Shown in pieces: positions 30,818 to 45,746 of a DNA stretch of 64,000 nucleotides. The notes under the pieces were generated by a model that was not told the DNA's origin, made no database searches, and worked only from the letters and a program-made list of their open reading frames with translations. This DNA comes from Psychromonas sp. SP041 (GTDB lineage: Bacteria > Pseudomonadota > Gammaproteobacteria > Enterobacterales > Psychromonadaceae). The position numbers and the translations under genes were made by a program. The stretch lies in the NCBI RefSeq assembly GCF_000470315.2, contig NZ_CBRF02000009.1:1-64000 (forward strand). The letters run 5' to 3'. Each line of letters opens with the position of its first letter. Position 1 is the stretch's first letter.

Positions 30818-31309
30818 TTAATTATTGATTTTTAACTCTTTATTTTTAATCATTACGACTTCGCTAGCTTGCTTTTTTCTCACTAACACTTCTAAGACAT
30901 TAACAATGTTTTTCCCTGCTTTTTGAAGTGACGTTTGATCTTTAATATCTTTTAATCCCGTTATATCAAACCTCATTGACTCTTCAATACCAGCAAATGC
31001 CATTGACCATTCAGAAAAATTTCTTTCATTAGTTTTTTCAAAATTTAAAACTGTTATTTCTGCATGACGACTATCTTGCTGGATAGTTTCAAAAATAGAT
31101 TCAAGGTTATCCTCTTCACCTTCAATAACTTGGCAAAAATAACCACCCGAATATAATAAAGCGCCTGTTATGCCGAGTTTTACATTATTGTTAGAAGCTG
31201 ATGTTAATATTGATTCAATTTGTGATTGTAATATTTGCTTGTCTCCTTCTATCATGTTTTTACTGATATAGGATAATTGATATAAATTCTGCATTGGTAT
31301 TTCACTCAT
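30818..31309 (-). CDS. Short BLUF-domain blue-light photoreceptor
   Basis: FAD-binding blue-light sensor of 163 residues: BLUF domain at about 7-105 and a short two-helix C-terminal cap. All residues of the photocycle are present by alignment to AppA: Tyr14 (LSYIS), Asn42 (NNVKLGITGALLYS), Gln60 (YFCQVIEG), Trp101 and Met103 (EWSMAF). It has no attached output domain, so it must act on a partner. Its ATG directly abuts the TGA of the upstream EAL gene, so the two are co-translated. The precedent is PapB of Rhodopseudomonas palustris, a short BLUF protein that controls the EAL protein PapA. The start could also be ATG 31294. Confidence 0.93.
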   Translation of the reverse strand: MSEIPMQNLYQLSYISKNMIEGDKQILQSQIESILTSASNNNVKLGITGALLYSGGYFCQVIEGEEDNLESIFETIQQDSRHAEITVLNFEKTNERNFSEWSMAFAGIEESMRFDITGLKDIKDQTSLQKAGKNIVNVLEVLVRKKQASEVVMIKNKELKINN

Positions 31310-32674
31310 TCAGTTTACAGGTTGATTCAAATAATTGAACATCTCAGATTCAAGCATTGGTTTAGCAAAATAGAATCCCTGTATTAAATCTGCCCCAAGG
31401 TTTGTCACGATTGCTAGTTGCTCTTTTGTTTCAACCCCTTCGGTAATAACACTTAACCCTAATGCGTCAGCTAAACCATAAACACCACGTGCAATCATTA
31501 AAGCTTGTTGAGATTTAATAGGATCTTGAGAGTCCAGTTGAAAGACAAAAGAACGATCTACTTTAAGCATATTAAGTGGAAGAGTCGTTAATTTTACAAT
31601 CGAAGAATATCCCGTGCCAAAGTCATCAATTGCAATTTGACAACCTAGCGCTCTTATTTTTTGTAGAGTACTTGCCATACTATGCATAAACTCAGAAGAC
31701 TCGGTTATTTCAATTCGAATTAATGTAGGTGATATACCTGATTCTGTAATAGCTTCTTCAATTGAGCTCATTAATAGTTCAGGGTCTAAAAATTGCAATG
31801 GACTTACATTAATATTCACCATCACATCATCTATTTCTGATAATTTATGCAAATTAACTATATCTAAACAAGCTTTACGTAATACCCATGCCCCTAATAC
31901 ATCCATTACCCCAATCTCTTCTGCTACGTGAATAAATTCATTGGGTGTCACAGCTCCCCTTAAAGGATGATTCCAACGTAGTAAAGCTTCAAACCCAGTG
32001 ACTTTATTTTGTTTTTTTGAAAAAATAGGTTGGTAAACGAGATAAAATTCATCACTGTTTATGGCGTTATATAATTCATGTGAATTTGTCGTTAATGAAC
32101 AACGTAAATCATTGGCTACTTGATGAGATTTCTTCGCTTTATCCAACATAAAGGGTTCAAACACAGACACTTTTAATCCATTATTATTGGCATAATGTAA
32201 AGCAGCCTCAGCGGCATGCATTGTATCGAGAAATGCTTGATCTTTTACTTGGGCTGAAGCTATCCCCATACGAATACTCAGTACAATGACATTACCACTA
32301 ATAGCAAAAGGACGTTGAGCGAAGTCTGTTAAACGGCTGACTTCTTCGAGTAGATTAACATCGTCATTAAACACCAAACAAAAATGATCTCCATGGGTTC
32401 TGTAAAGACATAAAGCATTGCAAAAAACAGAAGATAATCGTTTTGCAACTTTGCTTAAGATCTTGTCTGCTAACGTATTACCGACACTATCACTTATTTG
32501 ACCAAATCTAGATATTTCAAGCACGATGACATGCACTTTGGGCACATTATTTTTTAACAAAATACTTTCAGCTAACAGACAACCCGATGTTCTATTGGGC
32601 AAGTTAGTTAATGTATCTATTTGGTGATCTTGAATATCATTTTCAATGTGACTTTGAATATTGTCTACCTCCAT
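31310..32674 (-). CDS. GGDEF(degenerate)-EAL c-di-GMP phosphodiesterase, partner of BLUF
   Basis: A 454-residue cytosolic protein: GGDEF-like domain at about 15-175 with HGDHF (94-98) in place of GGDEF, so probably not a cyclase; EAL domain at about 195-450 with full catalytic set (FEALLRW with Glu229, NINVSP, IEITESS with Glu322, IDDFGTGYSS, KVDRSFV, TEGVET). It should hydrolyse c-di-GMP. The stop codon is followed without a gap by the BLUF gene, which strongly suggests that the BLUF protein governs this enzyme. ATG 32674 has AAGG seven bases upstream. Confidence 0.92.
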   Translation of the reverse strand: MEVDNIQSHIENDIQDHQIDTLTNLPNRTSGCLLAESILLKNNVPKVHVIVLEISRFGQISDSVGNTLADKILSKVAKRLSSVFCNALCLYRTHGDHFCLVFNDDVNLLEEVSRLTDFAQRPFAISGNVIVLSIRMGIASAQVKDQAFLDTMHAAEAALHYANNNGLKVSVFEPFMLDKAKKSHQVANDLRCSLTTNSHELYNAINSDEFYLVYQPIFSKKQNKVTGFEALLRWNHPLRGAVTPNEFIHVAEEIGVMDVLGAWVLRKACLDIVNLHKLSEIDDVMVNINVSPLQFLDPELLMSSIEEAITESGISPTLIRIEITESSEFMHSMASTLQKIRALGCQIAIDDFGTGYSSIVKLTTLPLNMLKVDRSFVFQLDSQDPIKSQQALMIARGVYGLADALGLSVITEGVETKEQLAIVTNLGADLIQGFYFAKPMLESEMFNYLNQPVN

Positions 32675-32997: not shown

Positions 32998-33143
32998 ATC
33001 GATTACATTAAATATGTTATCTAAATTTCACGCTGGACAAACAGTTCAATTCAAGACGTAAAAGGTTGTTTCCTTTGTAAAATTTACAACGAGGAAGTGG
33101 AATTTTTTAACAAATAAAATAGATAAGCTATTGATTGTTATTG
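32998..33143 (+). repeat. MITE-like repeat family 1, copy C (short form)
   Basis: About 146 bp from ATCGATTACATTAAATATG to TTGATTGTTATTGACAT, matching the ends of copies D, E and F but without the central 60-bp block. It is inserted into the serC pseudogene: coding resemblance to SerC resumes on both sides. Confidence 0.85.
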
Positions 33144-33444
33144 ACATTACACCATCGTAAAGACTCGTACAAAGGCAATCACTAACACCAAAAGATGTGA
33201 ATTTTCGTAGACCAAGCATGCCTTTATGCTAGCTCTCAATAAGAACTTATGCGTCAGTTCTTTATCTTCACCATTGATATTAAATGTCACATTTATTCTG
33301 CTTCTTAATGCTTTATTATCAACAGGTATACCATAAAAGCCATTTGAATTATCAATCAAATCATATATACCCGTTACCGTTCCAAGTGCTTTGTTCGGTC
33401 GTGAATTTGGAGCCCAAATCAAGGCGCAAGATGATGGCAATACC

Positions 33445-33630
33445 TAGTCCTTATCGAAGGTTTACGCAAAGTTGGTTTTCAAGCTAACGACTCAGAGAGT
33501 AAGCGGTGAAGTAAACACCTCGTTGTTAGAAAGTGTCGATTTAACCCGCTTGCTCTTCCTCTTTCTGCCTAGCACCTGTTCACTCGACCGCTCGCTGGAT
33601 TTTACACCTTGAAGGGTAACGAGTATAGAT
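33445..33630 (-). repeat. Dispersed repeat family 2, copy 1
   Basis: On the minus strand it reads from ATCTATACTCGTTACC to ACCTTCGATAAGGACTA and matches 43565-43754 over about 185 bp with scattered changes; for example TTTAAATCGACA and TGTTTACTTCACCG are shared. It occupies the place of the missing central part of serC. No long ORF is present; its origin is unknown to me. Confidence 0.75.
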
Positions 33631-33955
33631 CATCAGACTTAGCAATCGTTCACAAGACCCCTCCCCCTTTCAGACCAAGTGCCATTAACAATATAAATTG
33701 CAACATTCGTTTGTTCATGACATAGATTCAAAGGCAATGTTGCAGATTGTCCATGCCCACCACCATGAGTAAATAACATTTCGTAGTCGTCAGGTATTTC
33801 CATTACCTTCCTAACCGCCAGAATGGCATGCTCAATAATATTTAAAAACTCACGCGCTCGATGTAAATCTGTATTCATTTTATGTCATCTTACATAATCA
33901 ATTGGCGCTAACCCTCCACAGAAAAAGCTAATTTTTAATTAACCCAGTATGCAAC

Positions 33956-34084
33956 CTATTTTACTGCCAGCTTAGAACCGACCTTCGCTTTTATTGATAC
34001 CAACTTAATTTCAAATTTATCGAAATACATATCATCGTATTTATCTATTTCACCATGCGATCTATTGATAATGTTACGCTCCAT
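33956..34084 (-). CDS. Doubtful small ORF, 42 aa
   Basis: Begins MERNIINRSHGEIDKYDDM and ends KVGSKLAVK. It lies just upstream of the serC remnant on the same strand. There is no good ribosome binding site and no recognised family; it may be a fragment of another broken gene or chance. Confidence 0.2.
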   Translation of the reverse strand: MERNIINRSHGEIDKYDDMYFDKFEIKLVSIKAKVGSKLAVK

Positions 34085-34278
34085 GACATTTCACATCTAA
34101 TGCACAAGCCTGGTGCAAGAACACCTCCAAATAGGTGCTTTATTTTACTTTTATCAATTTCATTTCAAATACTTAACCCTACTATCCCTTTAAATTCAGT
34201 ATTTCCCTCTCTGTAATATTTTTGGCACATTTTATGTGTATTAATAACTTCGGATTAATCTACCTATAAGGAAATACC

Positions 34279-35046
34279 ATGAAATTAAAAACAACTACGT
34301 TAATCATCGCTTCTCTATGGAGCTCTTTTAGTTTAGGCGCTAACTGTGTCTATGACTGCCCAACAGGATTATCAGGTCAAGAAATAGAGCGTTCAATCTA
34401 TACATTAAGCAATAATGCAACGACCAAGTTTGCAGATTGGGTTGCGTATAATGTGACGAGTGAAACTATTGATGGCCCAACAAGATCTCGATACTGGAAA
34501 GCAGATCCTGATCTTGACTCAGATGACACATTAGAGCCCGATGATTACACTGATGCTAATGCGATACTCACTACAGATAGAGGGCATCAAGTTCCCTTAG
34601 CTTCATTCAGTAATACCGATGATTGGGCAATGCTAAACTATTTATCAAATATCACACCTCAGTCATCAACACTAAACCAAGGGCCTTGGGTCGATTTGGA
34701 AAGTGCAGTAAGAACGATGGTTTCAGATGGGCAAGATGTTTATGTGGTGAGCGGACCATTGTATGAATCTACTTTTGGAACATTACCAGGCGCTGATGAA
34801 ACACATACTATTCCTAGTGGTTATTTTAAAGTCGTTATTACCGATGTGAATGGTTGGGTGGAAGCCTCAGCATTTATTATGGAACAAAGCGCAGCTCGTG
34901 CTGATGAGTTTTGTTCAACCGAGGTGACAATTGATGAAGTTGAAGAGCTAACTGGTTTAGATATCATGCCTTCTTTAGCTTCTTATAAAGAAGGCTCCGT
35001 TGAAGGTCAGATAGGTGGATTAACAGCAAGTTTGGGTTGTAGTTAA
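34279..35046 (+). CDS. Secreted DNA/RNA non-specific endonuclease
   Basis: Exported nuclease of the beta-beta-alpha-Me (NUC1/NucA) family that degrades DNA and RNA outside the cytoplasm. After a signal peptide (MKLKTTTLIIASLWSSFSLGA), the 255-residue precursor shows the catalytic motif TTDRGHQVPLASF (DRGH at 100-103, His103 as base), the magnesium-ligand region LSNITPQSSTLNQGPW (Asn133) and DVYVVSGPLYE. Cysteines at 23, 27 and near the C-terminus probably form disulfides. Ribosome binding site AAGGAAA. It may supply nucleotides or phosphate from environmental DNA. It stands alone after the serC remnant. Confidence 0.93.
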   Translation: MKLKTTTLIIASLWSSFSLGANCVYDCPTGLSGQEIERSIYTLSNNATTKFADWVAYNVTSETIDGPTRSRYWKADPDLDSDDTLEPDDYTDANAILTTDRGHQVPLASFSNTDDWAMLNYLSNITPQSSTLNQGPWVDLESAVRTMVSDGQDVYVVSGPLYESTFGTLPGADETHTIPSGYFKVVITDVNGWVEASAFIMEQSAARADEFCSTEVTIDEVEELTGLDIMPSLASYKEGSVEGQIGGLTASLGCS

Positions 35047-35078
35047 TATAAGTAATATTAATCATATTTATAGTGTCA

Positions 35079-35117
35079 ATCTAGACTAGCTTCTCAGTTA
35101 CTGAAGCCAGTCTAGAT
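35079..35117. terminator. Convergent stem-loop behind the nuclease gene
   Basis: ATCTAGACTAGCTTC (35079-35093) pairs with GAAGCCAGTCTAGAT (35103-35117) with one mismatch. There is no strong T run. It lies between the nuclease gene (ends 35046) and the lipoprotein gene (ends 35201 on the minus strand). Confidence 0.6.
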
Positions 35118-35200
35118 ATTGAAGCTCAAGAAAGTAAAGTGACTTTTTACCTTGATACTACTTTCATTCTAATAGGCACTTATAATTTGGTAATGTTTAA

Positions 35201-35731
35201 TTAACCTTCGCTTTGGTAAAGACTCTCCGCTGATTGCATTTTAGCTTTACCTGATGTGATCAGTTTCTGACCTTTCTCAATATTAGCTTCGCCTTCAACA
35301 ATGTTGGCTTTTCCGCGTTTAATGAGTTTATTACCTTCAATCAGGTTATCTTCACCATCTTCCCATTCGTTAGCAATTACCTTTAGTTTAGCAACTCGCT
35401 TCAATGCAAGATCTGCTGACTCAACGCCAACAACGGTTTGAGACAGAGTCTGATAAGCTAACTTATTTTTTTGGATTTTAAGATTACCAGAGGCAACTAA
35501 TTTCTCACCTTTACTTAAGTAACCGCGACCTTTTTCTGCTAGTTTTTGACCGCTTACCAGTGTTTTTTCACCTTTAGTCAACGATTTTTGTCCATCTTCC
35601 CATTGTTCCGCTATTTTAACGCGAGACTCACCTTCCATTTGCATACGTTCACCAAATGTAGGAGGTGTCGTAGTACAACCAGCAATACTTAATAAAGTCG
35701 TTAATAAAATAATACGCATCGATAAGTTCAT
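35201..35731 (-). CDS. Lipoprotein with short helical tandem repeats
   Basis: Precursor of 176 residues with lipobox SIAGC (lipidated Cys near residue 18). The mature part is built of loosely repeated units of the form KGEKLVxSGxxKLxxKG (EKTLVSGQKLAEKGRGYLSKGEK; GNKLIKRGKANIVEG; KGQKLITSGKAKM), highly charged and without cysteine. The family is unknown to me. ATG 35731 is preferred since GGA lies upstream at good distance and the signal peptide is typical; the frame could start four codons earlier. Confidence 0.75.
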   Translation of the reverse strand: MNLSMRIILLTTLLSIAGCTTTPPTFGERMQMEGESRVKIAEQWEDGQKSLTKGEKTLVSGQKLAEKGRGYLSKGEKLVASGNLKIQKNKLAYQTLSQTVVGVESADLALKRVAKLKVIANEWEDGEDNLIEGNKLIKRGKANIVEGEANIEKGQKLITSGKAKMQSAESLYQSEG

Positions 35732-35979
35732 AAAATAATCCATATGTGAATTTAATAATTTTTGGATTCTACTTCTAAAACTTAATCTTTTACTAGCTTT
35801 TTATTCATATATTGTGCGTTTTTCAATCATAAACAAGATATCTTATTGAATAAAAATAGATTATTTTATTTTTAAATTTCAAAAAAAGATGAGAAATATA
35901 CTAAAAAAACAGAAAAATGACTGGCTAAAATCAATATAGCCAATCATTTAATAGCGTTTTTTCATAAACGAGGATTAAA

Positions 35980-37260
35980 TTACTTAAATAATGAAGGTAA
36001 AAATAGTGTTATCCAAGGAATATACGTAATCAATAAGACAATAATCACATTAGCTAGAATAAACGGCAATATTGCTCGGCTAATTTTTTCCATCGATTCA
36101 CCTGATATAATTGATGACGCAAACAAACAGCAACCTACGGGGGGTGTTGCTAGACCTGTAATTAAATTAACACACATGAAAATACCCGCATGTAATGGGT
36201 CAATACCTAACATGTCAAACACTGGTAGTAATACAGGTGTCACTATCATCAAGGCAGGAATCGAATCCATAAACATGCCCAGAAAAAATAATAAAACGTT
36301 GATAAGTAATAAAATTAACCAAGTTGATTCAATATTTTCTACTAAATACTCTGCAAAGATCATTGGCAACTGTTCATTTGATAATGCCCATCCAAAAATA
36401 CCCGCTGCAGCAATGATAATCGACACGCTACCTGTTTCAACAGTTGACTCTCTAATGGCTCCCATTAACCTCTTCCAAGTTAAAGAACGATAGACAAAAA
36501 TAGCAATAAAAATAGAATAAAATACTGCAATAACAGCCGCTTCTGTCGGGCTCACAACCCCCATTAAAATACCACCAAGAATAATCACAGGCAGTAACAT
36601 TGCGTAAAAAGCACCACCAACAATATCGAAACCTTGTTTGCGTGTTATTTTTTCTTCTCTTCTTGGTAAGTCATTTTTACGGCCGTATAACCAAACAACG
36701 GCAATTTGAGCAAATCCGACCATGACTCCAGGAATAGCACCCGCTAAAAACATATCTTTAATAGAAACTTGAGCAATTGATCCATACAGAATAAACATCA
36801 AGCTAGGCGGAATAATTGGCCCCATCGTTGAAGATGCAGCGGTGACAGCCGCACTAAAACTTTTTTTATAACCCGCTTTAGTCATCGCCGGGATCATTAC
36901 TGAACCAACCGCGGTTGTATCAGAAATAGCAGTGCCGGTAATACCACCAAAAAACATACTCACGACAATATTCACATAAGCAAGATTGCCCTTAACACGC
37001 CCTACTATTAAATCAGCTAAACGGATAATACGATCACTAATACCCGATTCAGCCATGACTTTGCCAGCTAAAATAAAGAATGGAATGGCTAAGAGTACAA
37101 ATGAATCAAAAGAACGAAATAATCGAACCACCATAATACTGAGAGGAATATCAGCTCCAATGAAGTAAACAAGTGTTGACGCAAGCAATGCAAAAGGAAT
37201 AGGTATTCTAATTGCCATCAACAAAATAAAACAAAGGATCATTAAAAAAATAAAAGTCAT
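35980..37260 (-). CDS. TRAP transporter large permease subunit (DctM-type)
   Basis: Inner-membrane ion-coupled permease of 426 residues with about 12 helices. Signatures include the N-terminal LLAIPFFILAGKVMAESGISDRIIRLADLIVGRVKGNLAYVNIVVSMFFGGITGTAISDTTAVGSVMIPAM and the central PPSLMFILYGSIAQVSIKDMFLAG. Its ATG overlaps the small permease stop by four bases (ATGA). It is the last gene of the eutA-eutBC-TRAP row, so the likely cargo is ethanolamine or a related amine, but that rests on context only. Confidence 0.93.
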   Translation of the reverse strand: MTFIFLMILCFILLMAIRIPIPFALLASTLVYFIGADIPLSIMVVRLFRSFDSFVLLAIPFFILAGKVMAESGISDRIIRLADLIVGRVKGNLAYVNIVVSMFFGGITGTAISDTTAVGSVMIPAMTKAGYKKSFSAAVTAASSTMGPIIPPSLMFILYGSIAQVSIKDMFLAGAIPGVMVGFAQIAVVWLYGRKNDLPRREEKITRKQGFDIVGGAFYAMLLPVIILGGILMGVVSPTEAAVIAVFYSIFIAIFVYRSLTWKRLMGAIRESTVETGSVSIIIAAAGIFGWALSNEQLPMIFAEYLVENIESTWLILLLINVLLFFLGMFMDSIPALMIVTPVLLPVFDMLGIDPLHAGIFMCVNLITGLATPPVGCCLFASSIISGESMEKISRAILPFILANVIIVLLITYIPWITLFLPSLFK

Positions 37261-37769
37261 GAAGCACTCCGTTTGCTAAAAATTGAAATCATTTTTGTTA
37301 ATAAATAAAGAAAAATCAAAAAAGCAAATATTGGAACAGATAGATAAATGCTACCAATAGGAAGCCAAGGGATAATGGGTGGATGCACAGGCCACATAGT
37401 GGCAACATGTTGACTACCAACCACGATAAAAATAATGCAAAGTAACATCATAATAATGCAGTGAAAAAAATCGAAAATCTTTTTAGTCTTAGGCCCGACT
37501 CTGTCATATAGAATATCAATTCGAGCATGGCTCTGTTGTGTATAGGCAATAGCACTACCTACTAATGCAATAATGATGTAAATGTATCTTGATATAGTAT
37601 TAGACCAAGCAATCGGCGAATCGAAGCTATATCGTAAGAAAATGTTAACCCCGAGTAATAAAATCAAAGCACACATTAATACCAGCAATGTTACGCCACA
37701 TATGCTACTTATTTTGTTCATTACACTTTCGACTTTATTCTCTAGCACAGCTTTTTTTGTATCAGGCAT
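37257..37769 (-). CDS. TRAP transporter small permease subunit (DctQ-type)
   Basis: A 170-residue membrane protein with four helices and the DctQ pattern (FLRYSFDSPIAWSNTISRYIYIIIALVGSAIAYTQQSHARIDILYDRVGP). It pairs with the large subunit to form the transporter. ATG 37769 is preferred because GAGG lies eight bases upstream; a GTG three codons earlier is too close. It begins 89 bp after the binding-protein gene. Confidence 0.9.
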   Translation of the reverse strand: MPDTKKAVLENKVESVMNKISSICGVTLLVLMCALILLLGVNIFLRYSFDSPIAWSNTISRYIYIIIALVGSAIAYTQQSHARIDILYDRVGPKTKKIFDFFHCIIMMLLCIIFIVVGSQHVATMWPVHPPIIPWLPIGSIYLSVPIFAFLIFLYLLTKMISIFSKRSAS

Positions 37770-37858
37770 ACCACTCACCTCATTATTCTTTGTTTGCTGT
37801 TAATTGATAGATCAACCTCTTTAGTCAAAAAGGTTGATCTTATTGAAGTGATTAATGA

Positions 37859-38890
37859 TTATTTAAATGCCTTAGGGAGACGGGCATTAGGATCAAGGTA
37901 TTGAATTTCTTCATACCACGTTTTCCATTGAGGTTCTTTAGCAAACCATTTTGTATACACTGACTGCGATGCTTCTTTAAATTCATCAGTATTTGGATAA
38001 GTAATCGTTTGATCTTTATCTTCTTTTACTTTTTCGATAAATTTAGCTTCGCGGGCATACTGCCAAGCGTCTGTTAACTCTATTGCTTCATCAGCAATAT
38101 CAGTCACAATCACTTTTTGTTCTGCAGTTAATTTGTCCCAAACTTTTGGAGACATAAATAATATTTTTTGCGTCCACATTTGATTCAATATTGCATAACT
38201 ATCAACAACTTCACTCATTTTGAAAATATCGTTGCAATACACACCTAAATCATCAGCTTCTACCATGCCTGTTTGTAATGAAGTATAAAGTTCACCCCAG
38301 TCTGTTGGTGTCACCGTAAAGCCAAATGCTTCATAGATATCAATAAACAAAGGATTTTGCATCGCTCGTAACTTCACACCCTTAGCATCAGCTAAACTAT
38401 TAATAGGCTTTTTACTGGCAATCGCAAAACCATTACAATCAGAATAGACGCCCAATGCTTTCATACCTGTTGCTTTACTGGCACCAGCAAGGATCTCTTT
38501 AACCACACTAGAACTTCTTGCTACTTTATAATGTTCCAAACTTTTAAATAAATAAGGAAGTTGAAGAAATTGAATGTCCTCGTAATAACCTGCTATATGA
38601 CCCGCACTCGTCGCCGCTAAGGAAACCGTTCCAGCTTTAGCAAATTCTAAGGCTTCTTCTTCTGATCCCGTTAACGTGCCAGGGTAAATAGATACTTTTA
38701 AATCACCATTAGTTCTTTCTTCTAATAATGTTTTAAAGGTTTCTGCCAGTAATTGGTCAGCATCATAAACATTATTTTGATGGGCAAATTTAAGCCTCAT
38801 TGAATCAGCTTGCACGACAGGTGCTAACAGCAACATCACACAAGTGGTCGCAAGTGTGACTTGTTTAATTACTTTCTTTCTCAATATCAT
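37859..38890 (-). CDS. TRAP transporter substrate-binding protein (DctP-type)
   Basis: Periplasmic receptor of 343 residues with signal peptide (cleavage near VVQADSM). DctP-family features are visible: LKFAHQNN at the mature start, LEFAKAGTVSLAATSAGHIAGYYEDIQFLQLPYLF and KGVKLRAMQNPLFIDIYEAFGFTVTPTDWGELYTSLQTGMVEADD. The conserved Arg in KLRAMQNP usually binds a carboxylate, which is a caution against ethanolamine itself being the ligand. It lies 81 bp after the fused lyase gene. Confidence 0.92.
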   Translation of the reverse strand: MILRKKVIKQVTLATTCVMLLLAPVVQADSMRLKFAHQNNVYDADQLLAETFKTLLEERTNGDLKVSIYPGTLTGSEEEALEFAKAGTVSLAATSAGHIAGYYEDIQFLQLPYLFKSLEHYKVARSSSVVKEILAGASKATGMKALGVYSDCNGFAIASKKPINSLADAKGVKLRAMQNPLFIDIYEAFGFTVTPTDWGELYTSLQTGMVEADDLGVYCNDIFKMSEVVDSYAILNQMWTQKILFMSPKVWDKLTAEQKVIVTDIADEAIELTDAWQYAREAKFIEKVKEDKDQTITYPNTDEFKEASQSVYTKWFAKEPQWKTWYEEIQYLDPNARLPKAFK

Positions 38891-38971
38891 TATTTATATC
38901 CTTATTTAATGTATGTAGATGTGTGTTGAATATTGATTAAAATATTTTTAGCATTACTTTGTTAAATTGGG

Positions 38972-41167
38972 TTATACATTTTTTTGAGCTTTCAATAGAT
39001 CTTCTAATCGATTACCTGCTGCTTGATTTTCAAGAATTTCCATTACTTTTTCTGCAACAACACTGCCTCCTTCGATAGGCGGTAAACCTCCTTGATAAAT
39101 GTTGGTAATTAATGTGTATTCATAACGAATTTTTTCATGTTCACTGTAAGTTGCTGCAGCCTTTTTTGCCTGTTCGTCTTTCAGTTTTAATACCAAATAA
39201 GCTGACATACTTTTTGAAGAAAGTGCATCGCCACCTGGTCTCTCTCCTGCCAATAAAATAGCAATATTACAATCCAATACATCAGCAATACATTCCGCTA
39301 ATTTAACCCGACCAAAGTGTGCAACGATAGGCTCCCCTAGTGAGTAATTACGGCTTTTTAACCCATCCATTAATACTGGTATCATATCCGGAACATTATG
39401 ATGTATGGCTTCAGCTGATAACCCATCTGTAATGATAATTTGTACATCATTACCTTCAGCAGAAAGGCTGTCTAAATCAACTTTTGAAAGTTTGGAGCCT
39501 ACTTCAGGATTTTTTAAATGTTCAGCATGGTCGATAGCCGTAGTAACAAACTCTCTAAATTTAAAGCCAGTGAACAGTTCTGGTTTTAAATGTGAATGCA
39601 CCGCTTCACGCCCTACCGATTGGTTAATTCGAATCACTTCTTGTACTTTATGTGCAGGACGTGGACCTGCATTTTCAAATCCAGGTGCATTTGGGGTCGC
39701 TTCATGTAGACGTTGAAACTCTAAATCACTCTTGATAAACAACCTTGGGTTTCCCCAGTTTGGACCGCGCTCAACGTTACCATCGGTATGTTGAATATAA
39801 ATACCTTTTTGAACTGCCCATTGTAAAAACTCAGGCGCAGGATTACGGTGATATATTTCCCTTAAGGTTTGATCGTCGTGCCCTGAATTCACAAAGTGAG
39901 CAAGCATACGATCGGTACCTAAATAGATATCCATAAAGAAGTTTGCCCCTGCCGCTGTAGCCAATTGCACAGCCATTTGCTGACCTTCTAAATGTGAGTT
40001 TGAATGTAAGGTATAACTTGGGCTGATGCCCATCGGTAAGCCTAAGAGTTTCCCCATGAAGTGGTCTTGAAGTGTCGATACCATTAATTCAAAGTCATTA
40101 AGATGTGTTTCTGGACCAATGAAACCTGTTGCGTTATTGACCATAAAAGGATCATAACGTCGGCATAGTCCGTAACATAATGCTTCGCAAGTCGCCATAT
40201 CCATACCGTTATGTTTACGGTAAGTCATTTCACTGCCTTGACCTGTTTCAAAGTACATAAATTGATCCGCTATATCTTTTAGCGGACCTTCATTTTTCAT
40301 GGTTTCCACAGCTTGATCTAAAAACTCTACCGTTACGTCGAACTCTCCGGTTAATGTTTCATCTGTACCTGCAAAGCTTTGGAATAAGATTTCAACCGGT
40401 GCTCCCTGTTTTAAGGCAGTAAGTTGACTTTTAATATGCCCAAGTACACAAATTTGAGTGGGAGCGCCTGTTTCGCGACGCAACTTATCTATATGCCAAA
40501 GCATAGCGGCTATATTATCGACTGACCCATCAGATGGGTTAACACCAATTAAACAGTCGCCCATTCCCATGGCTAAATCGTTATAAACCATCATCGAAAT
40601 AGCATCTAAATTATCTTTAGGATGATTAGGTTGAAGACGAAATGACAGTGTTTTAGGCGTACCAATCAAGGTTCTTGCTTTAGTTGGCCGAAATATTTTA
40701 CCGGGTAAATAAACTAATTCATGTACATCCATTAACTTGGTTAAAGCGGATGCCATGACAGGTGTTAATGCTAAACCAATCGCAGCCACTCGCGTTCCAT
40801 TACTGGCGAGCAAATGATCTTTAAGATCGCCCATAGTCATATGGGCAATACTTTGAAACAGTTCAAGATCTATCTCATAACCAGCACGCATGACAGAGTC
40901 AACACTGCCATCATCAGCAGTTAACGGATTATCATAAAGGTACTGCAATGTTAAAGAAGCTAGAATTGCTCTTGCCGCTTCTCTATCCATTGCATTTTTG
41001 GGTGCAAGGTCAGTTGTCCTATCCCCCGCTTTACTAATATCAGCGGCTCCTAATAGTTTTTTAAGCCCTTCAAAGTAAAAAATTTCATTCAATATTTTGA
41101 AAGAATAAACTTCATCAGGCCCTGGAACGGGAACATGAATATCTTTAAGTGGGATAATCTTTTTCAT
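38972..41167 (-). CDS. Ethanolamine ammonia-lyase, fused EutB-EutC
   Basis: Adenosylcobalamin-dependent lyase converting ethanolamine to acetaldehyde and ammonia. In E. coli and Salmonella the large (EutB, 453 aa) and small (EutC, 295 aa) subunits are separate; here both are in one 731-residue chain. The EutB part (about 30-480) keeps the substrate-binding residues: Arg177 and Gln179 (FRLQPN), Asn210 (GVNPSDG), Glu307 (YFETGQGSE) and Asp368 (QDHFMGKL). The EutC part (about 500-725) has QIIITDGLSAEAI, HFGRVKLAE, LLAGERPGGDALSS and ITNIYQGGLPPIEGG. No frameshift is needed. It lies 17 bp after eutA. Confidence 0.92.
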   Translation of the reverse strand: MKKIIPLKDIHVPVPGPDEVYSFKILNEIFYFEGLKKLLGAADISKAGDRTTDLAPKNAMDREAARAILASLTLQYLYDNPLTADDGSVDSVMRAGYEIDLELFQSIAHMTMGDLKDHLLASNGTRVAAIGLALTPVMASALTKLMDVHELVYLPGKIFRPTKARTLIGTPKTLSFRLQPNHPKDNLDAISMMVYNDLAMGMGDCLIGVNPSDGSVDNIAAMLWHIDKLRRETGAPTQICVLGHIKSQLTALKQGAPVEILFQSFAGTDETLTGEFDVTVEFLDQAVETMKNEGPLKDIADQFMYFETGQGSEMTYRKHNGMDMATCEALCYGLCRRYDPFMVNNATGFIGPETHLNDFELMVSTLQDHFMGKLLGLPMGISPSYTLHSNSHLEGQQMAVQLATAAGANFFMDIYLGTDRMLAHFVNSGHDDQTLREIYHRNPAPEFLQWAVQKGIYIQHTDGNVERGPNWGNPRLFIKSDLEFQRLHEATPNAPGFENAGPRPAHKVQEVIRINQSVGREAVHSHLKPELFTGFKFREFVTTAIDHAEHLKNPEVGSKLSKVDLDSLSAEGNDVQIIITDGLSAEAIHHNVPDMIPVLMDGLKSRNYSLGEPIVAHFGRVKLAECIADVLDCNIAILLAGERPGGDALSSKSMSAYLVLKLKDEQAKKAAATYSEHEKIRYEYTLITNIYQGGLPPIEGGSVVAEKVMEILENQAAGNRLEDLLKAQKNV

Positions 41168-41184
41168 TAAATAAACCTTAAATT

Positions 41185-42624
41185 CTAATAAATACCATAA
41201 AAAGAAACGGGTACAACGCCGCGATACGGACTTCCAATATTTACAAACTGTGCATTACGATCTGGTATTTCATCTATGATCATTAATTTAGCGGATGATT
41301 TTCCCCAGTCCGTTGCATAGTTACCTAATGCTTTCCCAAAATTTCCGGGTACCAATATCACTAACGGTAAATCAATAGTGAGTGTCGCTAATGCTTGATT
41401 TATTCGATCACCAAGCGTTTTAATTTGTTGCAAAGAAGCAGGTAAAGCTCCCCCTTCTGAATCAGTTACTGGTAGCATTTGAATACAAGCTTTACCACTA
41501 CGCTGTGCAACAACAGAAATAGAATTAAGAAGATCAGATAAGTCACAAGACATACTGAGTCGAGCAACAATAGGGACATCATTTAAAGGCAGTGCCGAGG
41601 TGTCTGGTAAAAATAAAGTTGCACCTGAAATTTCAGTATTATGAAGCGTCAACCCGTACACAGTTGCTCTACCCATATTTTCTGGGCGAATTGTTGTTAT
41701 TTGTTTAGAAAAGAAAGGATCGGAGATAATTCTTTTAGCTAGGTCGATACCTAAATCACCATAAAAGGTGGTACTAGGTATCGGTTCGTTTTCAGTGATT
41801 TTATAAATAAGTTCGCCTACACCACCGGAAAATGTAATCAGAGGTGAATCAACGTTTGGAGGCAGTATAAAAGAAGTTTGGCAAAGACGCTGGCCAATAT
41901 CGCTTTCAAAAAATGCTAGGCTTCCCCGAGCGATGGCTTTTAGTGCTTCAATGTAAAGGTCGAGGATTTTATTGAGGGTGCCAGCACAAAGAGTATCGCC
42001 AATTTCATTAGTTACCCCGATATGGTTTAACATTGAATAACCGTATTCAGAGATATTAATTAAGCGGTAAGTCCCTGGTTCAAACTGAAAATGCCTAGCG
42101 CCAATATAAAAACATCCCGTTGTTTTGACTTGTCCATTTTGACCTGCTGCGGGATTAGTTGTGCCGCCACCAATATCGAGATTAACGAGTGTTTCGTTCT
42201 TAAAGTGTCGAGATAATAATGCAGCACACCCCATGAAGGCTAACCATGACTCAAGGTTTGGATCATCAACCGTTGCAATAACAGCTTGTCCGATACGCTC
42301 TTTAATTAAAGCGGCAATATGCACTGAGTTTTGTTGTAAAGCAGCTAAACCAGTAATGATCACTCCGCCAGAAAAAATGTTATCGCCTTTTTCTAACCAA
42401 GTATCTAATAGTTCAGCGATAGCGGATGCGTCAATTTCAGCACCTTTAAAAGGCGTAAATTCAACATTAGAGCGATAGACAATTTCTGGTGCAGAGAATG
42501 CCATTCGACCTGTCGCAGAGTTCATTCCAACGCCTGCCACCGCGATCATCGCACTGCTAGTGGTTGAACCGAAATCCATCCCTATCATTTTTACTTGTTC
42601 TTTTATGTTTTGACTATTTTCCAT
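41185..42624 (-). CDS. eutA: Ethanolamine ammonia-lyase reactivase EutA
   Basis: Actin/Hsp70-fold ATPase that exchanges damaged cobalamin out of ethanolamine ammonia-lyase. The protein (479 residues with this start) has the phosphate-1 loop GMDFGSTTSSAM, the phosphate-2 region NLDIGGGTTNPAA, ITFSGGVGELIYK and the C-terminal PGNFGKALGNY ... IDEIPDRNAQFVNIGSPYRGVVPVSFYG, parallel to E. coli EutA. The start is uncertain: ATG 42624, 42636 or one further in all lack a perfect site. It is the first gene of the operon, with a 22-bp palindrome 253 bp upstream. Confidence 0.9.
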   Translation of the reverse strand: MENSQNIKEQVKMIGMDFGSTTSSAMIAVAGVGMNSATGRMAFSAPEIVYRSNVEFTPFKGAEIDASAIAELLDTWLEKGDNIFSGGVIITGLAALQQNSVHIAALIKERIGQAVIATVDDPNLESWLAFMGCAALLSRHFKNETLVNLDIGGGTTNPAAGQNGQVKTTGCFYIGARHFQFEPGTYRLINISEYGYSMLNHIGVTNEIGDTLCAGTLNKILDLYIEALKAIARGSLAFFESDIGQRLCQTSFILPPNVDSPLITFSGGVGELIYKITENEPIPSTTFYGDLGIDLAKRIISDPFFSKQITTIRPENMGRATVYGLTLHNTEISGATLFLPDTSALPLNDVPIVARLSMSCDLSDLLNSISVVAQRSGKACIQMLPVTDSEGGALPASLQQIKTLGDRINQALATLTIDLPLVILVPGNFGKALGNYATDWGKSSAKLMIIDEIPDRNAQFVNIGSPYRGVVPVSFYGIY

Positions 42625-43331
42625 ATGCCTATACATCACCTTGAACAACTTGAGTGCAACTGCAATCAAAAGATATGTTCAAAACAAGAGCATTATTTAT
42701 ACCAAGTGTTTGATCTATGCTAAATTTTTGTTCTCTATTCTATTTAAAATAAATGTATTGGGTTGTTGATAACAACGCATTTATTTTAAAAAATAACCAA
42801 TAAAAAACACTTTTAATACCATTTCTTTTAAACATTAAAAAAGCGCTCCCCTTTAGAAGAAATAAGCTTCTATTAATAATTAAGTGGTCACTTAATTAAA
42901 ATGAATAACAGCTTTTTATCATGATAATTTTTATTTGATTTTTCGATAAAAATTTAAGTTTCATGAATTTTAAATTTAATGGTATTTAAGGTGTTTTTTA
43001 ATTTAAATTGGAGTTTATTCTAGATTGGTACTGCTTACTTATTAAACAAATCCGAAAAAAGCACCATGTCAGCGCATTAATAATATTCGATTTCGCACTA
43101 TTTAGGATCGCATTTAAACATTAGTGATTACATGTGGTTTATTACGTACATGTGAGAAGTATAATAAAAAGTTTAAATCGCATGTTATCCGGAACAGTAA
43201 AGGCTAGGTCTATGTTTATTGTTCTATCAAACAGAAATGCTATCTGATTTTGACTATCTTCTGGGAGGGCGTTTATCGCTATAGTATTCAGAGCACTGAT
43301 AAAAAAGGTCAATTTATCCATACAAGTAATT
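42625..43331. other. Long leader region before eutA
   Basis: About 700 bp without a gene. It holds the palindrome at 42877-42898 and repeated TACATGTG words at 43130-43153. I looked for a B12 riboswitch (B12 box GCCACTG) and saw none. Confidence 0.6.
42877..42898. promoter_or_regulatory. Operator-like palindrome upstream of eutA
   Basis: TAATTAAGTG (42877-42886), GT, CACTTAATTA (42889-42898): arms of ten bases are perfectly complementary. The centre AGTGGTCACT resembles operators of GntR-type regulators. No regulator gene is adjacent. It lies 253 bp from the proposed eutA start. Confidence 0.55.
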
Positions 43332-43545
43332 AATACCGATTATATTATCTAAATTTTGCACGGGAAAACTATTCAATTCAAGGCGTAAATTGAGCCTTTC
43401 GAAGATTAACTTCGTTAATCGTCTATCGGAGAATTAACCAAAAGAGGTTAATGCTTTAATGACTGTTCCCTTTACGAAATTTACAACGAGGAAATGGGCT
43501 GTTTTAACAAGTAAAATAGATAAGCTATTTATTGTGATTGGTATA
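43332..43545 (+). repeat. MITE-like repeat family 1, copy D (long form)
   Basis: About 214 bp from ATACCGATTATATTATCTA to ATTGTGATTGGTATA. It contains the central palindrome AAGATTAACTTCGTTAATC (43400-43418). It is nearly the reverse complement of copy E at 50603-50824. The left end has lost about eight bases relative to other copies. Confidence 0.9.
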
Positions 43546-43564
43546 ATATTTTCTGATAACTCGT

Positions 43565-43754
43565 ATCTATACTCTTTACCATTCAAAGTGCGAAATCCAG
43601 CAAACGGTGAAGTGAACAAGTCCTAGGCAGAAAGAATAAGCTATAACGGTTTAAATCGACATTTTCTAACAACGAAAGTGTTTACTTCACCGATTGTCCT
43701 GTGGGTCGTTAGCTTGAAAAGCAACTCTGCGCTGCAACCTTCGATAAGAACTAA
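43565..43754 (+). repeat. Dispersed repeat family 2, copy 2
   Basis: Matches 33445-33630 in opposite orientation. It contains an internal inverted repeat CGGTGAAGTGAAC (43605-43617) and GTTTACTTCACCG (43680-43692) with one mismatch, able to form a large hairpin. It lies 20 bp behind MITE copy D. Confidence 0.75.
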
Positions 43755-43785
43755 CCAGAGTTATAAAGCCTGAGAAATGTGGAAT

Positions 43786-44028
43786 TTATAATGAGGTTGG
43801 AAATCGGCTTATTTTACAATACGCCTTTTTTTTCTGTAAGGCTTTTAACTTACTTCTTAACTTATGACCTTTCTTGTCTGTATATATAACACGCATATTC
43901 TTTTTAGCTGTCGTAATTTTCGCATCAATTTTTAAACATAAGCTTTTAGATACTTTGGTATTTTGTTTGGCCATGATATTGCTTGATATAATAAGCACAC
44001 AGGTAAATAAAATGATTTTATTAAACAT
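43786..44028 (-). CDS. Small secreted basic protein, 80 aa
   Basis: Signal peptide MFNKIILFTCVLIISSNIMA, mature part of about 60 residues rich in lysine with two cysteines (SLCLKIDAKITTAKKNMRVIYTDKKGHKL ... KKAYCKISRFP), which could form one disulfide. Small periplasmic proteins with the same layout occur in marine gammaproteobacteria, but I know no function. Ribosome binding site AGGAAA is well spaced before ATG 44028. It lies between repeats and the DUF6515-like gene. Confidence 0.65.
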   Translation of the reverse strand: MFNKIILFTCVLIISSNIMAKQNTKVSKSLCLKIDAKITTAKKNMRVIYTDKKGHKLRSKLKALQKKKAYCKISRFPTSL

Positions 44029-44280
44029 AGTATTTCCTACTTTTAATCAAATAAATGTAAGACGAGAGGATCTATTAAACGTAAATCACAATTTAACAAT
44101 ACGCAAATTTAGCGAAGAATCATCAATAAATACATATTAAAACTCATTATCTTAGAATAGTAATAACGAATTAACATTATCACTTTTACAATACAAAACC
44201 TTTCCTCTTCAATAAAAAATTTCCGCTAAAAAATAGGTTTAAATGACCAGTGAATAAGCAACTAACAACGCATTTATGAT

Positions 44281-44321
44281 TTAATCTAACGAGTATTAAA
44301 ATGTTAATCTCGTTAGATTAA
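44281..44321. terminator. Hairpin behind the DUF6515-like gene
   Basis: Perfect 13-bp stem TTAATCTAACGAG / CTCGTTAGATTAA around a 15-base loop. It has no T run, so it may be a terminator, an mRNA-stabilising hairpin or an operator. It lies 64 bp beyond the gene ending at 44385. Confidence 0.5.
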
Positions 44322-44384
44322 TTGTTGGCATAAAGACTACAATTCAGAAATGAAGTACAGCATTTACTATTTAAAAATAAAGAC

Positions 44385-45296
44385 TTAATCTAGCTTCACT
44401 GCTAAATAATCAACATCATTATCCGATGATTGAGGAAGAAAATAGATATTTTGATATTTAAAGTATTGTTCCCCGTTAACAACAACTAATTCAGCGCCTT
44501 CAGGTAATACTGAGTAACGTTGCCCAAGCTCAAAATAATCACTTTGTTGTTGCTCATATTGTGTTTCGTCAGTTACTGACAATGTAGTTGTATCATTAAA
44601 TGGCGCTTCTACCACTTGGTAATAAGCACCAGCAGTAATATAGTAAATACCTTGGAAGAAGTAATAATGATGTCCATTAACAAACAGATTTTCAAAGCCA
44701 TGTGGTAAATAACGGATTTTCAGCCCTACCGGAGGGTGTACGACGGTATATCCATTATTTAAATAACGATAATATAACCCACTACTAAAAATAAAAGAAA
44801 GGCCTCCAAAACTAAGACGACGACCATTTCTTGGTAGTTTATGACTCCTTAAGCCTATTTTATAAATGGCACGTTTACGAAAACTTTTACTGCGTTTAGT
44901 TTTTAAGTTTTTCGCCGCTATTAACCTTTTAGCCTTCTGTTTGTTACGCACCGCTTTATTTGGTGGTAATACTGACGTTTTTATTGTCGAGCGGTTTTTC
45001 TGAACAGCACGAGTATGAATGTTCCTATTAACATAAGTCTTTGAATTTTTATGCCTAATTGCATTTTTCTTATCCAACCTATTTTCTTTATGGCGAGCCG
45101 CACGGTTTTTAGGTAATACAGTGCTACTACCATAAAGAAGACGTTTACGTGTTATTTTGTCTGTTTTAGACTCAATTTTTTTGTGTACAAAGGATCTTTT
45201 TTGATGCTTTTTATTGTCTCTACTTTCAGCTGAACTAATACTTGGAAATACCATGATTAGACTTATGACAATAGGTAATAAGAATGCTAATTTCAT
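44385..45296 (-). CDS. Secreted DUF6515-like protein with basic N-terminal half
   Basis: Precursor of 303 residues with signal peptide (MKLAFLLPIVISLIMVFPSISSA). Residues about 25-160 are extremely rich in Lys/Arg/Asn with a loose repeat TVLPKNRAARHK ... SVLPPNKAVRNK. The C-terminal half repeats a Tyr-rich module, VGLKIRYLPHGFENLFVNGHHYYFFQGIYYI and GQRYSVLPEGAELVVVNGEQYFKYQNIYFLP, as in DUF6515. It is probably a cell-envelope protein of unknown role. ATG 45296 has AAGGA upstream; the longer frame lacks a site. Confidence 0.75.
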   Translation of the reverse strand: MKLAFLLPIVISLIMVFPSISSAESRDNKKHQKRSFVHKKIESKTDKITRKRLLYGSSTVLPKNRAARHKENRLDKKNAIRHKNSKTYVNRNIHTRAVQKNRSTIKTSVLPPNKAVRNKQKAKRLIAAKNLKTKRSKSFRKRAIYKIGLRSHKLPRNGRRLSFGGLSFIFSSGLYYRYLNNGYTVVHPPVGLKIRYLPHGFENLFVNGHHYYFFQGIYYITAGAYYQVVEAPFNDTTTLSVTDETQYEQQQSDYFELGQRYSVLPEGAELVVVNGEQYFKYQNIYFLPQSSDNDVDYLAVKLD

Positions 45297-45746
45297 TAGA
45301 GATCCTTTTAAAAAAGTAAATTTACAATCCATATTCATATAAATTGATACATTAAATAGTTGCTTACTAAATGATTAAGACCATGTTGAGTCCCTTTTTT
45401 AATTCAAATTTTATAAAACTATAAATGGTAAGTTGATTGTTCCATTGAATATAATGTTATGACAACAACAAGCAGTCTTTAGTTGCACACTTCCTTTCAT
45501 CGCTTATTTAAACGTAATATCATTATGTTACAAGATACAAAACGAAAATTGATATCTTACTATCCTTCATATTTCGCCATGTAAAAAAATAAAATTTGTT
45601 AATAAAAAATGATAGATAAAAAAATAAATTTGAATTGCATTACGATGATCAGTGCTAAATACCTAGATATTTTTTGATCTCGAATAAATAATAAAAAGCT
45701 CAACAAGTTATTCTAAAGTTTGATAGAGTAATTAAAGTGTTAAAAG
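45297..45746. other. Divergent intergenic region
   Basis: 450 bp of AT-rich DNA between the DUF6515-like gene and the iterons before the ABC transporter. I see no gene, terminator or family repeat. Confidence 0.55.

Follow-up and report, generated by a model that had tools for sequence, protein, structure and literature searches.

A single-chain EutB-EutC lyase with an altered substrate site beside eutA and a TRAP importer in Psychromonas sp. SP041: a candidate lyase for a modified amino alcohol

Described relatives and spread of the single-chain lyase

The closest described systems to the gene cluster analyzed here are the ethanolamine ammonia-lyases, represented by EutB-EutC of E. coli (3abo) and Listeria (2qez), and the fused EutBC1 and EutBC2 of Pelobacter carbinolicus. 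The cluster lies in a 64,000-nucleotide stretch of DNA from Psychromonas sp. SP041 (contig NZ_CBRF02000009.1, positions 1 to 64,000; hereafter the window) and encodes, on the minus strand, a single-chain EutB-EutC lyase together with EutA and a tripartite ATP-independent periplasmic (TRAP) importer; it may well serve to import an amino alcohol other than plain ethanolamine and to cleave it by radical chemistry, a reading we hold tentatively. As with the E. coli and Listeria enzymes, both domains align, R160, Q162, N193, E287, and F329 (E. coli numbering) are kept, and EutA is the partner; unlike them, the window lyase is one chain, carries Ser-Pro in place of Asp362 and His in place of Tyr404, adjoins a TRAP importer, and is encoded in a genome with a canonical pair elsewhere. 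The Pelobacter proteins are similar in that the subunits are fused and their genes adjoin those of periplasmic binding proteins, a likeness taken from their description, whereas that genome is described as lacking eutA (PMC3543383). Its authors proposed in 2012, from the duplication, that ethanolamine lyase and choline lyase may be distinct enzymes (PMC3543383). Shell-free ethanolamine use has also been published already (PMC9426561), and the contrast drawn in a first-pass annotation of this stretch, which took known eut loci to encode separate subunits and shells, is outdated (PMC9426561, PMC3543383).

Two further systems are relevant to a choline-like substrate. CutC choline trimethylamine-lyase would release a comparable product if the substrate of the window lyase were choline, but is a glycyl radical enzyme of a different family that requires CutD. 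The MthB-MthK-MthC-MthA choline demethylation system of E. limosum (PMC12155760) involves the same kinds of genes as those beside some unfused relatives of the window lyase (matched by kind, not by orthology), and none of these genes is in the window. In searches of open-licence papers, no description was found of a B12-dependent choline lyase, an Asp362-variant lyase, its partial choline context, a TRAP-linked subgroup, or the further fusions noted below. New here are the residue class described below, its partial choline context, its TRAP-linked subgroup, and further fusions that keep the Asp.

The lyase open reading frame (38972..41167, minus strand) has no internal stop and encodes a EutB domain (Pfam PF06751, residues 30–457, 408.8 bits) and a EutC domain (PF05985, residues 483–721, 144.3 bits), separated by a linker defined by the Pfam domain ends (residues 458–482; 39722..39796, minus strand), in agreement with the first-pass annotation of a 731-residue chain free of frameshifts. 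The fused protein scored below the NCBI curated cut-offs for both EutB (390 versus 554 bits) and EutC (124 versus 230 bits). An AlphaFold model of moderate quality (predicted local distance difference test 74, predicted template modeling score 0.56, 12 alignment rows) best matched the large chains of ethanolamine ammonia-lyase (3abo_A, E 1.2e-29), then the small chains, and then diol dehydratases; a predicted structure of this kind cannot settle the substrate.

A search for other single-chain EutB-EutC proteins and their neighbors, as had been proposed, yielded 17 further loci of the fused kind; the chain is complete in 16 of them and truncated at a contig end in L037. Two of the 17 belong to the genus of the window, and the single chain is also found on complete replicons (a Desulfosediminicola chromosome and a Methylocystis plasmid). 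Because the chain is intact in further loci, complete replicons included, an assembly error, a concern the annotation had raised, is excluded as the source of the fusion. The eutA gene lies directly upstream in 14 of the 17. Among the best 80 of 594 relatives in a scan of genome contigs, 13 were of the fused kind, at 55–87% identity, with the next best at 34%. The fused kind is rare, occurring in 3 of 24 genomes of the family of the host, in 2 of 369 genomes drawn from its class (its own genome included), and in 1 of 385 genomes from the class of Aquabacter, this being the centre genome itself and already known. No close member was found among 385 genomes from the phylum of Desulfoluna, where the other fused lyases keep Asp362. 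No viral relatives were found.

The genome of the window also holds a canonical, separate eutB-eutC pair (737.5 bits, versus 410.7 for the fused protein), which the earlier annotation had missed. A canonical EutB accompanies the fused kind in 12 of 17 genomes, and four of the five genomes without one are metagenome assemblies (one plasmid record, outside this count, was also searched). Canonical and variant lyases share a locus at L027, L051, L056, and L087. In Pseudomonas LD120, the genes for aldehyde dehydrogenase, EutH, and EutA precede, in that order, the fused lyase gene, after which come those for canonical EutB and EutC. At L051 (9983-13631, Geosporobacter), a canonical EutB and an Ala-Pro EutB stand in tandem, followed by one EutC. 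In a Rhodocyclaceae assembly, the fused lyase gene overlaps at its end with a gene for a B12-binding-domain protein (L030, 11769-12890). Polyangium (L031 and genome G398) shows two EutB matches with the score and frame length of the fused kind; a triple EutA-EutB-EutC fusion at L031 was rejected, the long frame comprising EutB and EutC only (Pfam) with eutA just upstream (tblastn).

Loss of Asp362 and the Ala/Ser-Pro residue class

The window lyase is about 34% identical to E. coli EutB. In alignments to Protein Data Bank chains, Asp362 of E. coli EutB (MGCDCCYTNH) pairs with Ser382 of the window lyase (MGISPSYTLH; codon at 40022..40024, minus strand, followed by Pro383), while Asp368 of the window lyase pairs with E. 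coli Asp348. The same pairing was obtained against an E. coli EutB index-checked at positions 160, 162, 193, 287, 329, and 362. We take Asp362 to be a contact to the substrate amine, which it reportedly touches in work by Shibata in 2010 and by Mori in 2014. If the five substrate contacts of ethanolamine ammonia-lyase are taken as R160, Q162, N193, E287, and D362, four are kept in the window lyase and the fifth is replaced by Ser382. The first-pass annotation had counted all five as present; its first four are sound, and its fifth, Asp368, is not the equivalent of Asp362.

Residue counts on the fused kind refer to 18 loci, with a second Polyangium copy and a partial match in genome G404 standing outside the count. 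Position 362 is Ala in 13 of these and Ser in 5, each time followed by Pro, and R160, Q162, N193, E287, and F329 are invariant. Among 98 other aligned EutB sequences, Asp362 is present in 88 and Ala in 10, the latter being the partial fused L037 and nine unfused proteins with Ala362-Pro363, which in this first scan came from Bacillota, an actinomycete, and Desulfoluna. Met322 and Ser/Thr327 are common to the fused and unfused groups, with at least 90% conservation in each. In a tree built without the signature columns, all 26 Ala/Ser rows fell on one side of a branch (support 99/98; 200 of 200 bootstrap trees). Unfused members of this Ala/Ser-Pro group are mostly from Bacillota and fused members mainly from Pseudomonadota. 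A EutB at L187 has Ala362 without the following Pro (motif GIKMGCAT). In Desulfoluna, the contig with the first Ala-Pro EutB carries a second one (L212) at a distance of about 54 kb. Selenocysteine was considered for regions flagged with in-frame TGA and dropped; because the EutB match sits within one stop-free frame there, the TGA was taken as outside the match.

Further fused lyases keep Asp362 (L038, L052, L064, L208–L210, and L224–L236). The last of these, sampled in the phylum of Desulfoluna, form a distant family of their own, perhaps of the Pelobacter type, with Asp362 in 13 of 13 members, about 33% identity to E. coli, open frames of 705–962 amino acids, Ala327, and a CST(L/Y)H motif. 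When 11 of the 13 were added to the tree, holding the Ala/Ser rows together was not rejected (p 0.575 by the approximately unbiased test, with a slightly higher likelihood).

Gene context and candidate substrates

Within the fused kind, Ser362, Ser364, and His404 mark the genus of the window, an uncultured Vibrio, and Desulfosediminicola, and in this Ser-Pro subgroup Val326 has become Ala and Thr407 Asn, alongside the Tyr404-to-His change. The same TRAP set was found at 5 of 5 Ser-Pro loci (three lineages) but at none of the 11 Ala-Pro fused loci for which 4 kb or more of downstream sequence was available, two further ones not allowing a judgment (p 0.0002; p 0.003 by lineages). The eutA-lyase-TRAP order is kept in two congeners, the uncultured Vibrio, and Desulfosediminicola, and this co-inheritance upholds the link between importer and lyase drawn in the first-pass annotation. 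In the receptor, DctP, the orthologues are 77% and 69% identical. R175, which the annotation had flagged with caution as a carboxylate-type arginine, is indeed kept in three aligned sequences, and it is conserved with D213-D214 in the two aligned orthologues; the equivalent arginine of TRAP receptors binds carboxylate. The E-N-N of the five solved DctP relatives shown reads D-L-G in the window receptor, and its nearest solved relatives are distant. No close DctP relatives were found on plasmids (all 1042 records below 60% identity, the 25 listed among them at about 32% or less), and none at E 1e-60 or better in 369 genomes of the class except its own. Because no close receptor relative was found elsewhere, the importer looks dedicated to this lyase.

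Ethanolamine, the substrate favored by the first-pass annotation, is not supported, because the presumed amine-binding Asp is lost, a canonical lyase is present in the genome, and the receptor keeps the TRAP arginine. A related compound is the probable substrate, since the nitrogen-gripping site is changed and the importer travels along. The enzyme is perhaps an adenosylcobalamin (AdoCbl)-dependent carbon-nitrogen lyase for a modified, possibly N-methylated, amino alcohol with its own uptake; both the substrate and the chemistry are inferred, the latter by analogy to the AdoCbl radical elimination of ethanolamine ammonia-lyase. In such a scheme, the TRAP importer would take up the substrate, the single-chain lyase would act by hydrogen-atom abstraction at the carbinol carbon and would move or expel the nitrogen group to give a carbonyl compound and an amine, and EutA would swap out damaged cobalamin. 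Replacement of Asp362 by Ala-Pro or Ser-Pro may give room for, or drop the need for, a primary ammonium. The substrate class would then be N-alkylated, above all N-methylated, ethanolamines (choline, dimethyl- or methylethanolamine), with Ser-Pro and His404 as a possible refinement in the TRAP-linked subgroup. N-methylated ethanolamines are most likely as the class best backed by context, that context coming from the unfused relatives.

This context was examined in one draw of 199 Bacillota genomes (two near-identical draws, treated as one sample). Thirteen Ala-Pro regions (a 14th copy being L054) and 15 of 19 other EutB regions were compared, each of 8.8–20 kb; of the four omitted, three lay inside Ala-Pro regions and one at a contig edge, and by motif the 15 comprise 14 with Asp and one with Ala but no Pro. 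MttB-family genes were detected in 7 of 13 Ala-Pro regions versus 0 of 15 others (Fisher p 0.0014). When the two centre genomes from which the idea was formed were set aside, the counts were 5 of 11 versus 0 of 13 (p 0.011), and p was 0.024 with L172 also removed. The first-scan loci gave 0 of 8 Ala-Pro (L053 having been counted already) and 0 of 15 Asp loci, and both sets pooled gave 7 of 21 versus 0 of 30 (p 0.001); these p values are rough, given the non-independence of the genomes. With TAG read as pyrrolysine, two of the MttB genes exceeded the trimethylamine methyltransferase cut-off (640 and 647 versus 525 bits), and one of them adjoins pylB, pylC, and pylD. In Desulfosporosinus (L053), the genes after Ala-Pro EutBC and EutA (named by clustering with an identified gene) encode, in order, a PocR-type regulator, a corrinoid protein, a kinase, an MttB-family methyltransferase, another corrinoid protein, and a methyltetrahydrofolate methyltransferase. 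At L054, in Sporomusa malonica, an organism listed among choline users (PMC12155760), there are genes for PylSc, for a corrinoid protein, and for a kinase related to a choline-kinase-family member at L178. In Desulfoluna, about 11 kb separates Ala-Pro eutBC and its eutA from cutC and cutD; these last two exceed their NCBIfam cut-offs, whereas EutA is not over its own. Genes of the choline-kinase family, for APH-type kinases, and for EamA stand beside some unfused Ala-Pro lyases, gene kinds reported from the choline-demethylation cluster of E. limosum (PMC12155760).

Several observations weigh against a methylated or otherwise modified substrate, or against extending the choline context to the fused lyases. 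Eleven choline-context queries (CutC, CutD, two MttB types, PylB, PylC, PylD, PylSc, a corrinoid protein, and two kinases) gave no match at any of the 18 fused loci over their whole stretches, two of which have little flank; because no choline-type genes occur there, only residues and tree connect the fused group with the unfused one. Once the distant fusions are included, the unconstrained tree places the two fused groups together (57/95) where long branches meet, and it no longer resolves the link between fused and unfused members. Of the first Ala-Pro set, six of nine genomes have no MTTB, and the eight other loci show MttB in 0 of 8 over the stretch covered and, in six of eight, none of the query genes. 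CutC was over its cut-off in 4 of 30 genomes examined. At L172 the MttB gene is nearer the canonical copy, and the control region L193 also has a corrinoid protein and a choline-kinase-like gene. The fused copy at L027 adjoins EutH and canonical eutBC, which fits ethanolamine. TRAP receptors with the arginine usually take anions, and choline is a cation.

Among the explanations considered, it is possible, although doubtful, that Ala/Ser-Pro EutBC is a B12-dependent counterpart of choline lyase, converting N-methylated ethanolamines to acetaldehyde and a methylated amine, with the TRAP-fed Ser-Pro branch further specialized on an N-substituted or carboxylated amino alcohol. If so, a B12 enzyme for methylated ethanolamines might work in air, soil and sea would hold a hidden extra source of methylamines, and some annotations as ethanolamine ammonia-lyase would be wrong. 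We consider it rather unlikely that the protein is an ordinary ethanolamine ammonia-lyase with a chance fusion of its subunits, the second copy being for other conditions and the TRAP importer for another compound or for ethanolamine. Retention of four of five substrate contacts, adjacency of eutA in 14 of 17 other loci, the Pseudomonas LD120 copy between EutH-EutA and canonical eutBC, and the lack of choline-type genes beside any of the 18 fused loci are consistent with that explanation, but Asp362 is lost in all 18, the protein scores below the curated EutB and EutC cut-offs, 12 of 17 genomes have a canonical paralogue, and some unfused members of the residue class occur in choline contexts.

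A substrate particular to the Ser-Pro subgroup, namely a TRAP-imported zwitterionic hydroxy-amine with a carboxylate, such as carnitine (cleaved to acetoacetate and trimethylamine) or N-hydroxyethyl-glycine, is unlikely in our estimation yet a live alternative for these TRAP-linked loci. It would account for the exclusive TRAP association (5 of 5 versus 0 of 11), the changes Y404H, V326A, and T407N, and a receptor that keeps R175 while E-N-N reads D-L-G; the named compounds, however, are chemical guesses, the solved relatives of the receptor are distant, and its relatives at E 1e-60 in the 369 class genomes comprise its own only. An inactive, regulatory, or artefactual protein is very improbable: the divergent sequence and the loss of one active-site residue would fit it, but all 18 loci have the remaining contacts unchanged, eutA is kept in 14 of 17 others, and independent assemblies show an unbroken chain. 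A sulfonate substrate, suggested by a Methylocystis phosphosulfolactate synthase gene about 9 kb off, was dropped, as no such family is common to the clustered fused loci.

The cluster and its surroundings in the window

On the minus strand, eutA lies upstream of the fused lyase gene and dctP-dctQ-dctM downstream, so that all three TRAP components are present together, and each of the four neighbors exceeds its Pfam cut-off. The reactivating chaperone gene eutA (41185..42624, minus strand; PF06277, 222 bits) starts at an ATG at 42624, although the frame can open at 42669. The receptor gene dctP occupies 37859..38890 (minus strand; PF03480, 189.8 bits), the small permease gene dctQ 37257..37778 (minus strand; PF04290, 89.5 bits), and the large permease gene dctM 35980..37260 (minus strand; PF06808, 403 bits). 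The spacings given in the first-pass annotation were reproduced, with gaps of 17 bp between eutA and the lyase gene and 81 bp between the lyase gene and dctP, and a 4-bp overlap of dctQ and dctM; the dctP/dctQ gap is 89 bp from the ATG at 37769, as annotated, or 80 bp if dctQ starts at its GTG. These genes are presumably co-transcribed.

The absence of a microcompartment was confirmed, as the BMC shell domain (PF00936) had no match in the genome at E 0.001 while the control genomes of E. coli and Synechococcus gave matches. No CutC over the TIGR04394 cut-off was present in the genome (best 83.7 bits versus 1050), and no Rfam family, cobalamin riboswitch included, reached gathering score within 33000-45500. 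A promoter scan returned fewer sites than in shuffled sequence and was uninformative. Elsewhere in the window (30818-32674, minus strand), an open reading frame for a BLUF blue-light sensor abuts that of a GGDEF-EAL protein, likely constituting a light-controlled cyclic-di-GMP switch.

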